A stretch of DNA of 64,000 nucleotides from Muricea muricata. Taxonomy: Eukaryota; Cnidaria; Anthozoa; Malacalcyonacea; Plexauridae. The position numbers and the translations under genes are program-made. Shown here piece by piece: positions 51,425 through 59,732 of this stretch (positions within the stretch are counted from its first letter, which is position 1; every line of letters starts with the position of its first letter). The notes beneath the pieces were generated by a model. That model was not told where the DNA came from and made no database searches. It saw nothing but the letters and a program-made list of their open reading frames with translations. The stretch covers positions 8,233,290-8,297,289 of the forward strand of contig OY979717.1 of the NCBI GenBank assembly GCA_963855995.1, read 5' to 3'.

Positions 51425-52805
51425 AGTAGGTGATATTTCAGAACAGAGCCCATCACTTACTCTAATCTTACAAAAGGGGAAATTCAGGCTACTATGTGTA
51501 GGAAAAATGTTTCATTTATAAACTACTTGATCAACAAGAACAGCTTTTAAATGAAGAAAGGTTATCCACAAAAATATTCATTCTGTTAACAAGGTCAGCT
51601 TGGTCAGTTGCTTACTGGTGCCCCAATTTTTGCTTGATAGAGAGAAGGAAATAAACAAATTCTGCCTGGTAAACAGGACCAGCCCCGCATGCAAACCAGG
51701 CTCTCATAAACAGCCACTAAATCGGGTGAATGCTGGCTTGGATCCTTGCAGACGTCATCATGACTCCAATCTGCACAAGTTTAGGTTGTTTGGCAAGGTT
51801 TGGACTGTTGGGCCTTTGCCATTAGTGGCAAACATTGACTATAAATTTAACCCAAGTGTCTATTGCAGCAATGAGCTAGTACAATCATTGGATCATGTAA
51901 TGTATTGTGATTTTCAGCAGTCTAACATAGAGTCTTTTATAATTTATATATCTCAACAGTTAAACCTGCAAAACATAATCACTTAAAGACACATCAAAAT
52001 TTATTCTTTTAATCCCAAAATATGGTATAAATTATAAACACAGCATGGCCGTCTCATTTACATATACTAGGAAATACTTCATTCACCTACCAAGAACACG
52101 ATATAATGTCCGTTTCATCTAAAAATTAATTTCTTTGTTATATTCTTCAAGCTTCCAAACGTATTCGTTGACCCATACTTGTCAATGTATGCTCTAAAAC
52201 ATGCCAACCTCATTTAGCTAGAAGACATTTGGAAAGGCTCCATCCACGAGGATAGGAAGGCTCTGACACTTTCAAATGGATTTTGAAGTCATTTTGTACG
52301 TTTGATCCTCGATTTTACATTTAGCTCAATCGCAGGAACTTTTGTCAGCACTGAAGAACGTTTTTGAGCTAAATAAACTTATTTTTCATGCAAAAATTCT
52401 CAATTTAGTAAGTTATAGTGGTGAAATGTAATATAATCTATAGTGTTTGTTTATGTTCGTGTTCCTGAGTCCCAGTCCCCCAAGCACCACGGAAATTTTT
52501 TGAAAAAGCCATGTTTGGCGCCCCATATCTCGGAAACTATTGAACTAAATCAAAAAAGGTTAAAGAACTTATTAACTAACTTTATTACATGAGTAAAGAG
52601 ATTTATTCATCGATATGGCTGTGCGTAATAATCGTTCCAAATTAGCAATAGCCAATCGGCATCAAGAACGATAAAATTTCACTCGGTGAAAAATCATCGT
52701 TCACGGCCTTTGATTGGACGAACGATGTTTTTTCACCAGTGAAAATTTATCGTTCAGTGTTCTGATTGGCTGACCCGAACGTGCAACACCTGCTCGCAGG
52801 GCATA

Positions 52806-53098
52806 TGACAAAACGTGGACTGGACTGGACTGACAAAAGGTGGACTGGACTCGATTAACAAAAGGTGGACTGGACTCGATTGACAAAAGGTGGACTGGAC
52901 TCGATTGACAAAAGGTGGACTGGACTCGATTGACAAAAGGTGGACTGGACTCGATTGACAAAAGGTGGACTGGACTCGATTGACAAAAGGTGGACTGGAC
53001 TCGATTGACAAAAGGTGGACTGGACTCGATTGACAAAAGGTGGACTGGACTCGATTGACAAAAGGTGGACTGGACTCGATTGACAAAAGGTGGACTGG
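52806..53098. repeat. 25-bp minisatellite, about 12 copies
   Basis: The unit is TGGACTGGACTCGATTG followed by ACAAAAGG. About 12 copies are nearly identical. The inverted arm at 57467-57590 has only about five copies. All three minus-strand frames stay open because 25 is not a multiple of 3 and the unit lacks stops; this is not evidence of coding. Confidence 0.95.
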
Positions 53099-53319
53099 TG
53101 ATGTCACCATATGTCACATCGTGAATTTTCCAAATTTTCCCGTTTTTTAGCGGGTTTTGCAGGCTAATATTTGTTTCGATGGTTGCAATTTGAATTTGCT
53201 TTCTTCTCATACCAAACATGCGAAAATATATCGAGAATTTGTGAAAATAAACTGCTTTTTCTTTGGACAATTTTGTCATCGATGTAATATTTAATATGGC
53301 TCGGTAATTGTACAATCGG

Positions 53320-53818
53320 AAGAGGTTTTAGCGAGAGTCCAGATGAATTTGTTGCCAATGTCAAAGATGAGTATGATCAGTCTATATCACTGCCTGATTT
53401 GAGAACAAACCTTCCAGCAATGAAAGAGAACAAGTGGTTTTCCTTGACGGGGACTTGAATGAGGTTAGCATCTCTTATTTTTATGCCTAGTTTCAGGGGT
53501 ATATTTTTTAGGTGATATTGATATACTGTTATTTGCCAACAATGTTTTAAATGAATCCAAATGAAAGAAATGTGACTTAGTATATAGTAAATATATGGTT
53601 GCCCTTTGAGGGTGAACGTTCAGACCATAACAATGAGTATGATGAAGAGTTTGATGAATTGCCAGGAGGTCTTGTAAGTTGTTATTTGAAGAGTTTTATA
53701 CAAATTCTATGCAAATCCTCTTTATCAGAGAAATGTAACATAATTTTCTGTCATGTAGCTCTCACCAGAGTCAACTACTGCAGATGATGAGCCCGGACCA
53801 AGCCGCCAAACGTATTGA
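53320..53818 (+). pseudogene. Captured exon-like fragment in left palindrome arm
   Basis: Conceptual pieces are RGFSESPDEFVANVKDEYD, then SLPDLRTNLPAMKENKW up to about 53455, and after a GT-AG-like gap PFEGERSDHNNEYDEEFDEL (about 53599-53672) with a GTAAGT donor. A last piece after TGTAG at about 53758 starts LSPESTTADDEPGPSRQT and ends at a stop before 53821. The inverted arm (56305-55680) carries the same pieces with small changes. The splice-like borders and amino-acid conservation suggest exons of a real gene captured by the element. The protein family was not recognised. Confidence 0.4.
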
Positions 53819-54143
53819 GTGTAAATAAAGAGTCATCATAAACCCAAAATGGCTGCCATGAATTTTGAATAATTATGTGAATCAGTAAATGTGGAATTAC
53901 TCTGAATTGACTAATTGAATTGAAACAAAAATGTAGGGATATCTTGCCTATATGTATTGTTAGTCATCTATAATATTTGTGGCAAAGCCATGACATTCTG
54001 AAGCTGGTAAAATTTCTTGAATCTACATAATTGTAATTATTTATCTAATTGTTCATCGGAAAACTCGAACCGACTCCCCCTTTCATAATCTACACTATAT
54101 ATGCTTTCTAAAAATATATAGTTTCCCATACCAATTGTAAGTA

Positions 54144-54555
54144 AATCTATGTATTGTGAGACCAGAATGTGAATCCTATTTCAGGACTACATGTATTCAT
54201 GCACCAACTACACGAAGCATGCAATTTAAAGTTTCTACTTAATGCGATAATGCAGTGCCTTTGACTCCCCAGCTATCTCAAAATATGGGTATGTAATGTT
54301 TGAATAAATCTTTCTCAAAATGTGTTTGTGTGTCTTTGGCCTTTAACCCGCCTTCGAGTGTGACAAGGGCTCGAGTCTCATGTAAAATCCAGAGCATACT
54401 CTATGTCTCTGGTTTTGAGATAGCTGGGGAGTCAAAGGCACTGCATTATCGCATTAAGTAGAAACTTTAAATTGCATGCTTCGTGTAGTTGGTGCATGAA
54501 TACATGTAGTCCTGAGATAGGATTCACATTCTGGTCTCACAATACATAGATTTAT
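54144..54555. mobile_element. 412-bp palindromic insertion in the left arm
   Basis: It starts AAATCTATGTATTGTGAGAC and ends with the complement. Arms are about 143 bp and the centre is about 125 bp. TATTGTAAGTAA-like sequence lies on both sides, where the opposite arm has a single copy (near 55350-55365), which marks an insertion. Superfamily unknown. Confidence 0.7.
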
Positions 54556-56500
54556 TCTAGTCTGAAGATGGATTATTGTAAGTAATTTGCCTGTTTTTTT
54601 TTTGCTTGACATATACTATGTTAATTTCAACAAAAAATTGACCAAAAAATTCAGTAATTTAAGAGTTAAACCATTTAATTTTAAACATAGACTTTGATCT
54701 AGGCATGAAGACTTTTAGAAAGACTGACTAGAAAAAAGTTGCAATTAAATACACGGAATTTTCCAGCAATTTCAGATCACTTTTCCACGCGTAATACAAA
54801 ACTATATAAAATTGAAAATTGCCATCTTCAAAGGGCTAAATTTTCCTATTTTACAACAGTTTGCAACCAAACTTTGCAATTTTATTAAACTGCTATTTGT
54901 CGTAGAGTTTATAGTTTTTACAGTTTATAAAGCGACCATACATATGACATAATATTGTGCATGAAATTGAATGTTTTAACTGTAAAAACTATAAGCTCTA
55001 CCACAAATAGCAGTCTTTTACCACAACAGGAAAGAGAATGTTAAAATTAATAAAATTGCAAAGTTTGGTTGCAAACTGTTTTAAAATAGGAAAATTTAGC
55101 CCTTTGAAGATGGCAATTTTCAATTTTATATAGTTTTGTATTACGCGTGGAAAAGTGATCTGAAATTGCTGGAAAATTTCGTGTATTTAATTGCAACTTT
55201 CTTCAAGTCAGTCTTTCTAAACGTCTTCATGCCTAGATCAAAGTCTATGTTTGAAATTAAATTGTTTAACTCTTAAATTACTGATTTTTTTGGCCAATTT
55301 TTTGTTGAAATTAACATAGTATATGTCAAGCATAAAAAACAGGCAAATTACTTACAATAGGTATGGGAAACTATATATTTTTAGAAAGCATATATAATGT
55401 AGATTATGAAAGGGGGAGTCGGTTCGAGTTTTCCAATGAACAACTAGATAAATAATTACAATTATGTAGATTCAAGAAATTTTACCAGCTTCAGAATGTC
55501 ATGGCTTTGCCACAAATATTATAAATGACTAACAATACATATAGACAAGATATCCCTACATTTTTGTTTCAATTCAATTAGTCAATTCAGAGTAATTCCA
55601 CATTTACTGATTCACATAATTATTCAAAATTCATGGCAGCCATTTTGGGTTTATGATGACTCTTTATTTACACTCACTACTCTGTTTGTTTTGTTTATTT
55701 ATCTTAGGAATAAAAACTATATTATCGATAAAATTTACAGGGTTTGGTAACTATATTACACTTCGGCTTTTGTGTGATAGTCCGTGATTTGGATTTACTG
55801 CTAATTGCTGTTTGGTGGCTTGGTCCGGGCTCATCATCTGCAGTAGTACTGCTCTGGTGAGAGCTACATGACAGAAAATTATGTTATATTTCTCTGATAA
55901 AGAGGATTAGCATAGAATTTGTATAAAACTCTTCAGATAACAACTTACAAGACCTCCTGGCAATTCATCAAACTCTTCATCACACTCATTGTTATGGTCT
56001 GAACGTTAACCCTCAAAGACAAAGGGCAACAATATATTTACTATATACTAAGTCACATTTCTTTCATTTGGATTCATTTAAAACATGGTTGGCAAATAAC
56101 AGTATATCAATATCACCTAAAAAAATATATCTCTGAAACTAGGCATAAAAATAAGAGATGCTAACCTCATTCAAGTCCCCATCAAGGAAAACCACTTGTT
56201 CTCTTTAATTGCTGGAAAGTTTGTTCTCAAATCAGGCAGTGATACAGACTGATCATACTCATCTTTGACATTGGCAACAAATTCATCTGGACTCTCGCTA
56301 AAACCTCTTCCCGATTGTGCAATTACCGAGCCATATTAAATATTACATCGATGACAAAATTATCCAAAGAAAAAGCAGTTTATTTTCACAAATTCTCGAT
56401 ATATTTTCGCATGTTTGGTATGAGAAGAAAGCAAATTCAAATTGCAACCATCGAAACAAATATTAGCCTGCAAAACCCGCTAAAAAACGGGAAAATTTGG

Positions 56501-57443
56501 AAAATTCCAGTGAACTCTAATACAACTGGAACGATAACTTGGCCGCCATCTTTGAAGCCAAATTGAAGGCCGCCATGTACGTCACGCCGCGAAAATATGA
56601 CCTATTTTCAAAAGCTCTTTTCGAGCCTTTAACTTCGTGTTTTAGAGCCAGTTAGGTGCTAAATATTTTCTAGATAGATTGAAATTTCATGTACTTCAAC
56701 TTTCTAGGACGTCCAGTAAGGTTTTAAAATATTTTTTGGCTGCTAAAAATGAAAAACAGTTTCGGCGAAAACTTTGTCACGAAATATCTTTTTTAAACAA
56801 CTGTTACCTCTCGAGTTTTAACAGTTAGATGGAAGAGGCTGCCAAGAACTATCCGTAACCGAAGTTTAAAGCTTTAAAACTAATGCTATCTGACGAAAAA
56901 TGTTAGTTTTGTACGTATTTTTAAATAAACCATACAAATACACCACTTTGAAAACCTCGATTTACTCACGTTTTAGAAGGGCTACAGCAAAGAACAAAAG
57001 CTCAAAATAAACAACGATACCTGGACTTTAGCACAAGATAAGTTTTGGAAGAGTTGACATGTTTTAAAGCAATATATTCTTGAGTTGAAGAGCGTAGTTT
57101 GCTTCGTAGTTTGCTTCGGCACGTTGAAACTTTCGTCATTTTCCAGAGTAAAAAACTGATAGCCCTCAATTTTTTCCGTAACCAAGTGTAGAACAGTCAG
57201 GACTATCCAGAAAACCAGGATCGAATCTTTAAAATTGAAGTCTTGCGATAAAAATTCTCATTTTTCAAGCATATTTTCGCACAAAAACAAACTTTTCACT
57301 CCTCGTAACTTTCCCCAGTCCTTTCGAACAAGCCATTTTTCCCGCGCGGTTCCCGCCTTTTGCTTCAAATTTGGCTTCATCCAATCATAGGACGAAAACA
57401 TAGGAGTTATCGTTCCAGTTGTATTAGAGTTCACTGGAAAATT
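56501..57443. mobile_element. 931-bp element with CCAGTGAACTC ends
   Basis: The element at 56507-57437 starts CCAGTGAACTCTAATACAAC and ends with the complement; the TIR is about 33 bp. AAAATT flanks both sides (56501-56506, 57438-57443), and the uninterrupted sequence in the other palindrome arm near 53123-53140 has it once, so this is a clean insertion with a 6-bp (or shorter, ambiguous) duplication. No intact ORF. Confidence 0.75.
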
Positions 57444-57466
57444 CACGATGTGACATATGGTGACAT

Positions 57467-57590
57467 CACCAGTCCACCTTTTGTCAATCGAGTCCAGTCC
57501 ACCTTTTGTCAATCGAGTCCAGTCCACCTTTTGTCAATTGAGTCCAGTCCACCTTTTGTCTGTCCAGTCCAGTCCACCTTTTGTCATATG
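57467..57590. repeat. 25-bp minisatellite, inverted short array (~5 copies)
   Basis: The same unit as 52806-53098 in reverse orientation (CCTTTTGTCAATCGAGTCCA), at the outer end of the right palindrome arm. The copy number differs from the left arm (about 5 against 12). Confidence 0.9.
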
Positions 57591-57888
57591 CCTGCTCGCA
57601 GGCTAGTGTAAACATGGAGTCTGATTTTACAAGTATTTTTTTAACTCACCGACCCCGAAAAGAGAGATTTAAGACAATTTCACTGATAAAACAACCACCT
57701 AAAATCATAACGACGAAATTCGTGGCCTCATTAACTTGAAATAAACCTCATGGTTTCATTTTCAGCAAGAAAACAAAGCAATAAATGGTATGAAATTCCA
57801 TTTTAATATTTTGCTTGAGTATTTGTTTTTGTCAGTAACATATATCCGTATCTTTATACACTCATCTTTATACTCATATAATAAACAA

Positions 57889-58042: not shown

Positions 58043-58134
58043 CTCTATTTTTGTGCTCTTTCCAAATCCGTAAAGATCCCCTGAGTGATATAGGCACTTT
58101 AAATAATGTATAAGCCAACCGGCATGGTAGAAAA

Positions 58135-58353
58135 GACGGGTACCGGATAGACGGATACCGGATAGACGGATACCGGATAGACGGATACCGGATAAACGGA
58201 TACCGGATAGACGGATACCGGATAGACGGATACCGGATAGACGGATACCGGATAGACGGATACCGGATAGACGGATACCGGATAGACGGATACCGGATAG
58301 ACGGATACCGGATAGACGGATACCGGATAGACGGATACCGGATAGACGGATAC
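58135..58353. repeat. 15-bp minisatellite, about 14 copies
   Basis: Unit TACCGGATAGACGGA, almost uniform, with one TAAACGGA variant. Because 15 is a multiple of 3, the minus strand gives a repetitive SVYPV frame; no coding context supports it. It starts immediately after the copied TRIM23 intron end. Confidence 0.95.
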
Positions 58354-58585
58354 CATTATACTAGAAACTTAGAATTAATTCGTAAAACAGCTATATTTTC
58401 AACTTGTTTAGGTGCATGACAATAAAATCATGTACCAATTTATGATAGACGTTTAGAAACATTGTCTCAAACAGGTTTTGAAACAGGTTTTAGTAACTCG
58501 ATTTATTTAAGGCATGAATTTTTTTCTCATTCCTACGGAGCCCCATAAGGGCCATTATCACTGTTATTTTATTTTTTTTCATAAA

Positions 58586-58791: not shown

Positions 58792-59732
58792 ATTTTATAA
58801 TGTTAGCCAGCCACAATGACTCAATATTTTTGCCTCGTTTGCTTCGTTTGTCTTTCTACAGGGTGTATCAAAAAAAACGGAGTCCATGTTTTGTGTCTCA
58901 TTATTTCTAAATTACTGAAGCTTATTGAACAATTTTGGACTTGTTTTAAACCACGTTCTTTTCTCTTTCGAACAAGCCGTAATTCGTATTTTTACTCCGC
59001 GTAACGTACGTGCTATGGCAAATTTAGTAAAAGCTATCGATTTGAGATGCCCTCCAATTATGCAAATTCACTATGTCTTTCATGGTCGCCAGTTAAATTT
59101 TTAATTTTTTCGCTTATTACATAAATGGTATTTCTGTTAAACTTAATAAAACTTGTTATAAAGCTTTACAGAAGATAACGGACCGTTAACGTGCACTACG
59201 AACGGATAGTTCAAGCTTGTATCGACTTCATGAATATTAACATTATGCAATTTCGACAACATTGTGCACGCGCGGATAAACAAAACGCTAATTTCGATCA
59301 TTATTTTGGCATAAATCTAAGGTTTTTGTTGATATAAACGGTCCGTTATCTTCTGTAAAGCTTTATAACAAGTTTTATTAAGTTTAACAGAAATACCATT
59401 TATGTAATAAGCGAAAAAATTAAAAATTTAACTGGCGACCATGAAAGACATAGTGAATTTGCATAATTGGAGGGCATCTCAAATCGATAGCTTTTACTAA
59501 ATTTGCCATAGCACGTACGTTACGCGGAGTAAAAATACGAATTACGGCTTGTTCGAAAGAGAAAAGAACGTGGTTTAAAACAAGTCCAAAATTGTTCAAT
59601 AAGCTTCAGTAATTTAGAAATAATGAGACACAAAACATGGACTCCGTTTTTTTTGATACACCCTGTAGAAAGACAAACGAAGCAAACGAGGCAAAAATAT
59701 TGAGTCATTGTGGCTGGCTAACATTATAAAAT
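58792..59732. mobile_element. Tc1/mariner-type element copy 2 within a perfect palindrome
   Basis: The element at 58859-59665 (807 bp) starts CAGGGTGTATC and ends GATACACCCTG, with TA on both sides (58857-58858, 59666-59667). It is about 90% similar to 40626-41417 by eye. Outside it, 65 bp on the left (58792-58856) and 65 bp on the right (59668-59732) are exact inverted copies. The empty site would thus be a 132-bp perfect palindrome with TA at its dyad (GTCTTTC-TA-GAAAGAC). The identical short frames in both arms are mirror images, not genes. Confidence 0.85.

Follow-up and report, generated by a model that had tools for sequence, protein, structure and literature searches.

A mobile foldback palindrome in Muricea muricata, probably derived from one end of kinase-encoding Mutator-like elements

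The stretch of DNA analysed here (hereafter the window) comprises 64,000 nucleotides of Muricea muricata (GenBank assembly GCA_963855995.1, contig OY979717.1, positions 8,233,290 to 8,297,289 of the forward strand) and contains, at window positions 52800-57592, a palindromic element of 4,793 bp. The element begins with GGCATATGAC, ends with GTCATATGCC and is bordered on both flanks by the 9-bp target duplication TGCTCGCAG. Its arms are 96-99% complementary in collinear blocks from 52800 through 57592 and meet at a loop of 52 nt (54925-54976) with an A+T content of 73%. Minisatellite arrays of 25-bp units are found just within both ends, with 11 units on the left and four on the right when up to two changes per 17-mer are allowed. 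The arms cover the whole element as long terminal inverted repeats with tandem subrepeats, a trait of foldback-type elements. Mirrored exon-like pieces, RGFSESPDEFVANVKDEYDQSISLPDLRTNLPAMKENKWFSLTGT, GERSDHNNEYDEEFDELPGGL and LSPESTTADDEPGPSRQT, are seen in the left arm. Each arm is interrupted by a miniature inverted-repeat transposable element (MITE), and the left arm is without 129 bp that are retained on the right (55681-55809).

A giant palindrome with mirrored exon-like pieces and an AT-rich loop of about 50 bp had been proposed here in an initial annotation made from the sequence alone, and each of these elements of the description is borne out. Of the extent then given, 52803..57592, the right end stands, but the element begins at 52800 and its arms, given the nested MITEs and the 129-bp difference, are not seamless. 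The features are as follows, in window coordinates and with the strand where one applies; the kinase side and the long elements to which some lines refer are described below.

52791..52799: target duplication TGCTCGCAG, left copy, 9 bp, supported by an empty site
52800..57592: complete palindromic element, probably foldback, non-autonomous and of the Mutator-like element (MULE) type
52800..52809, plus strand: left terminus, GGCATATGAC
52806..53098, plus strand: left subterminal array of 25-bp units (11 units, up to two changes per 17-mer)
53123..54669, plus strand: left-arm copy of a nested piggyBac remnant (5' exons; TTAA at 54666-54669 after its right end; split by the MITE)
53321..53458, plus strand: exon-1-like piece, piggyBac (RGFSESPDEF...ENKWFSLTGT)
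53611..53676, plus strand: exon-2-like piece, piggyBac (GERSDHNNEYDEEFDELPGGL)
53759..53818, plus strand: exon-3-like piece, piggyBac (LSPESTTADDEPGPSRQT), truncated by the 129-bp left-arm deletion
about 54145..54573: palindromic MITE inside the left arm
54889..54924, plus strand: left side of the inner stem; in the three long elements the equivalent sequence is confined to the kinase side
54925..54976: loop, 52 nt, containing the breakpoint CATATGACA; the terminal 10-mer is copied at this point in the parent
54977..56499, minus strand: inner right arm, with the kinase-side stem, the piggyBac remnant (TTAA at 55266-55269) and the 129 bp at 55681-55809
56508..57436: hAT-like MITE inside the right arm, with the duplication GAAAATTC at 56500-56507 and 57437-57444
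57469..57586, minus strand: right subterminal array of 25-bp units (4 units)
57583..57592, minus strand: right terminus, GTCATATGCC
57593..57601: target duplication TGCTCGCAG, right copy, 9 bp

The palindrome is a real mobile DNA element. The genome (453 Mb in 74 contigs) was searched with the left half of the palindrome as the family query, giving at least 203 matches at many loci (the best 40 candidates were scored), and 20 stretches were retrieved. Both ends could be read in 17 units, namely 14 palindromic ones, one of them a fused double, and three long elements. An exact 9-bp target duplication accompanies 15 of these, including all three long elements, and its length falls within the 8-11 bp used as a criterion for MULEs. 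When the element and one duplication are removed from the window, the joined flanks find a full-length match of 97-100% in all 40 best-scored loci; the closest empty site among the matches listed, C3:28169370, is identical at 298 of 298 bases, and the other loci show small indels or substitutions. The window palindrome therefore inserted within a copy of an abundant repeat. The fused double (L019:1459-8812) consists of two palindromes with a single outer 9-bp duplication common to both, and its inner junctions, counted as two additional rows, are without one. By eye, a same-looking abundant host repeat surrounds several palindromes (window 52600-52799 and the flanks of L017, L018, L020 and L022), a possible target preference.

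The three long members of the family, C1:36163814-36177902 (about 14.1 kb), C1:68986077-68999118 (about 13.0 kb) and C2:43189650-43206515 (about 16.9 kb), have their ends in common with the palindrome. Their terminal repeats of about 1.8-2.0 kb, alike at 90-97% over the main aligned pieces, contain the same exon-like pieces. They encode a protein kinase (PF00069, 3.5e-35) and a transposase, near-identical (99-100%) copies of which number exactly three among the best 64 candidates, one per long element. A SWIM-like CxxxC...CxH motif was read by eye in this transposase, and the comparison of motifs covered the D-A/P-TF, GTD and CxxH blocks. A relative at C1:29399071, 53% identical, scores 31.3 bits against PF10551, over the cut-off of 27.6, and it is through this relation that the transposase is placed among the MULEs. 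Since the long relatives have the ends of the palindrome together with a MULE-type transposase and a kinase, the palindrome reads as a non-autonomous foldback derivative of a Mutator-like element.

The arms themselves indicate how it was founded. The window palindrome and 14 further ones were compared, with 36 arms passing a coverage filter that removed arms of L029, L030 and L031 as well as the left one of C2:43189; C3:59037 is single-armed, and the palindromic places C1:95813 and C1:42652 (L030) lie outside the comparison. Over a 0.7-kb block, each arm of all 15 palindromes is closest to an arm of another copy (98.8-100%), its own partner being 96.1-98.2% identical. The 15 aligned centres have one common loop with single-base differences, L028 differing to the left of the loop through an insertion. 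Arms nearest to those of other copies, together with a common loop, point to a single founding, after which the palindrome spread as a unit. With up to four changes in 24 allowed, a probe from the kinase side matches both arms in 15/15 palindromes but one side only in 3/3 long elements, so a single inverted duplication of the kinase-side end is the most likely origin of the palindrome. The initial annotation had offered, as one option, the inverted duplication of a smaller element; the inverted duplication is retained, but the source appears to be an element of 13-17 kb.

We thus consider it very probable that this is a foldback, non-autonomous Mutator-like palindrome, founded once from the kinase-side end and mobilised in trans by its long relatives. 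Under this scheme, transposase from the 13-17-kb kinase-encoding relatives would move the palindrome. A break would most likely have fallen a short way inside the terminal repeat, where a copy of the element's own end (a cryptic end) is present; the parent sequence at the breakpoint, GCATATGACA, is the terminal 10-mer, which L009 and L014 match exactly and L012 with a single change. Repair through fold-back or inverted-repeat invasion would have yielded an inverted duplication of the kinase-side end, and the palindrome would then have multiplied through transposition with 9-bp target duplications, the exon-like pieces being carried along as passengers from a nested piggyBac copy.

A palindrome of this kind might also have a function, one compatible with the proposed origin: a read-through transcript could fold into a hairpin and give rise to small RNAs against the parent, as suggested for Mu killer. 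The latter, a derivative of maize MuDR, is an inverted duplication with both ends from the mudrA-adjacent end of one element, and a hairpin RNA was proposed for it (PMC3440606). The topology is identical to that of the palindrome, whose arms both contain the kinase-side stem in 15/15 cases, subject to the possibility of a longer ancestral repeat (L030). Mu killer differs in being treated as a single locus acting on the transposase gene, whereas here the kinase side is duplicated and 15 copies were compared. The long and nearly complementary arms speak for such a silencer, but arm mismatches of 1-4% and the nested inserts would weaken the duplex, and amplification requires no silencing role. 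We regard this function as unlikely. By inference, any hairpin RNA would match the parent's terminal repeats and piggyBac-derived sequence, not a host gene.

Several observations weigh against the single founding from the kinase-side end of a MULE. Two of the 17 units, C1:61261 and C3:56420, are without a target duplication, and the transposase open reading frame of the long elements itself reaches 18.2-19.7 bits against PF10551, under the cut-off of 27.6. The left arm of the long element C1:68986 is nearest to its own partner (97.9 vs 97.5%). The match to the terminal 10-mer at the breakpoint was noticed post hoc, and there is one occurrence in the other 59 kb of the window. Lastly, both arms of an older palindrome, L030, contain the loop sequence as well as the kinase-side probe, so that the ancestral terminal repeats may have been longer, in which case a plain internal deletion would suffice.

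Such a deletion within a long element, joining its two terminal repeats, deserves consideration. Non-autonomous elements usually arise through internal deletion, and terminal repeats of 1.8-2.0 kb with main pieces 90-97% alike would look palindromic once joined; the older palindrome L030 leaves room for a repeat that was formerly longer. Against it, all 15 palindromes hold in both arms a sequence missing from the transposase side of 3/3 long elements. Furthermore, opposite-strand kinase neighbours within 3 kb number 12 convergent and 0 divergent, which points to one-end duplication, although only one pair was read. On balance a simple deletion seems to us distinctly unlikely, and an inverted duplication of the kinase-side end is preferred.

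The exon-like pieces tell of a different element. In the initial annotation they were ascribed to a captured gene, mirrored as a natural source of small interfering RNA against it, and a genome search for the parent of the RGFSESPDEF and ENKWFSL exons was proposed. Run genome-wide with the joined exons, that search gave 178 matches and led to piggyBac loci; no host gene was found by it. The loci L032 and L033 carry a related N-terminal exon at 57-58% identity and, behind it, a piggyBac transposase, whole or broken, with PF13843 (DDE_Tnp_1_7) at 5.5e-86 (L032) and 1.8e-27 (L033). The remnant in the palindrome has TTAA at its right end in both arms, its other end having been cut away, and piggyBac insertions end at TTAA. 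On these matches, a piggyBac transposase is the source of the mirrored 5' exons, which belong to a piggyBac copy nested within the terminal repeat. That insertion into the MULE terminal repeat most likely predates the long elements and palindromes that now have it. While exon-like pieces with splice-like borders do exist, their parent type and the terminal TTAA make a captured host gene very improbable, and it was rejected as a candidate. As to the suggestion of an assembly artefact through collapsed inverted haplotypes, long palindromes are easily misassembled, but the many loci with different flanks and target duplications (exact in 15/17), the common centre and the empty-site sequence effectively exclude both artefact and chance.

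The kinase of the long elements is a recurrent neighbour of related transposases. For linkage, the best 64 transposase and 140 kinase candidates were scored, the kinase search having given at least 109 hits. A kinase lies within 20 kb of 26 of the 62 best-scored related transposase loci, upstream on the same strand in 25 and on the opposite strand in one; examples of the former arrangement are C4:12814496-12820751 and C63:91493-97111. The control set was all 103 other MULE hits, or 97 after overlap removal, and one of these 97 has a kinase within 20 kb, also upstream on the same strand. Fisher's test gives p = 8.5e-12, a value to be taken only as a guide since the loci, the three long elements and several close copies among them, are not independent. 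When the three long elements are set aside, identity to the window family is 30-55% for the transposases and 37-61% for the kinases of the same-strand pairs.

Twenty-one pairs were compared further: that of one long element, the control pair, and 19 of the remaining 22 same-strand pairs. The kinases retain HRD in 21/21 and DFG in 19/21, and stops interrupt the aligned part in four of the 21 kinases and six of the 21 transposases. Kinase and transposase distances are correlated (Mantel r 0.57, with 0/9999 permutations as high); the trees disagree in places, C1:103017 being placed differently, so some swapping is likely. In five distant kinase comparisons the synonymous rate (dS) is saturated and the nonsynonymous rate (dN) is 0.24-0.35, and in seven close ones dN is below dS, mostly from few changes. 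The divergence pattern of the kinases is compatible with purifying selection.

The convergent kinase pair that was read, L075 (1510-4395), is a palindrome of 2,886 bp whose arms each hold a kinase and whose ends are GGCTATC...GATAGCC. An 8-bp minisatellite lies at either end, the target duplication, GTTCTTTTAT, is 10 bp long, and the arms are 99% complementary over 1,324 nt. Its kinase is 96% identical to that of the C4:12814 locus, whose transposase sits 4.4 kb downstream. L075 is an independent palindrome with the geometry of the window element, the break lying inside the kinase. The position of the kinase inside terminal repeats was established in the three long elements and L075 only. Taken together, these results make it a serious though tentative possibility that, in this Mutator-like foldback lineage, the kinase is a long-standing, selected second gene upstream of the transposase, and that kinase-side breaks repeatedly yield palindromes that spread and possibly silence their parents through hairpins of kinase or terminal-repeat sequence.

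Comparison with known systems places the foldback family among those of a known kind. Tm1, a Mutator/Foldback element of root-knot nematodes, likewise has 9-bp duplications, terminal repeats with tandem motifs, and both non-autonomous forms and transposase-bearing members, but it has another captured gene and a subterminal motif of about 14 bp, and a kinase is unmentioned in the main text of that report (PMC3169594). The Foldback-like Galileo of Drosophila shares very long terminal repeats with tandem repeats and many size variants (PMC3573991, PMC4168063); its transposase, however, is of the P superfamily and its duplication 7 bp (PMC4168063), as against MULE-type and 9 bp here. Among MULE groups, Rehavkus (9 bp) and Phantom (8-10 bp) are similar in duplication length, and Rehavkus also has a minisatellite near one end (PMC6446971). 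A kinase is unmentioned in the main text of that survey, which lists extra open reading frames per group, as it is in that of a giant-transposon review (PMC6431247). For MULEs with extra terminal repeats, no settled mechanism is given in the available text of PMC3310237.

Kinase genes near MULEs have already been reported in a fungus and in maize, which counts against novelty: they are over-represented beside MULEs in Rhizophagus irregularis, and the same source cites maize MULEs with receptor-kinase insertions (PMC8647823). The Rhizophagus case differs in concerning proximity and carried copies of host genes; the available part of that report does not describe a kinase located within the terminal repeats of elements that bear a transposase, with order and strand constant among diverged families. 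Nor did the available parts of the open-licence literature yield a kinase retained within MULEs that bear a transposase, in an order constant among diverged families. The possibly new part is that the kinase linkage and the one-end palindromes both recur. With parents identified for a set of natural palindromes, the birth of long palindromes from transposon ends becomes testable, as does the repeated emergence of the Mu killer topology elsewhere. From the kinase linkage it would seem that a signalling enzyme is a working component of some eukaryotic transposons, with the transposase, repair or host silencing as its possible targets.

Finally, other repeats lie within and beside the palindrome. 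The 0.93-kb segment of the right arm, considered as a gene piece and rejected as such, is a MITE of 929 bp with ends CAGTGAACTC...GAGTTCACTG and the 8-bp duplication GAAAATTC, a length suggestive of hAT. Elsewhere in the genome it has at least 39 full-length copies at 98-100% and one at 95%, and because the copies are so homogeneous it was probably active recently. The left-arm MITE is present in line in at least five other family copies, and at least one copy (C4:7469886) stands alone without the rest. A tandem array of 15-bp units (GGATAGACGGATACC) occupies window positions 58119-58358. Adjoining the palindrome is also a probably recent inverted repeat, whose 396-bp arms (58792-59187 and 59337-59732) are fully complementary and separated by a spacer of 149 bp.

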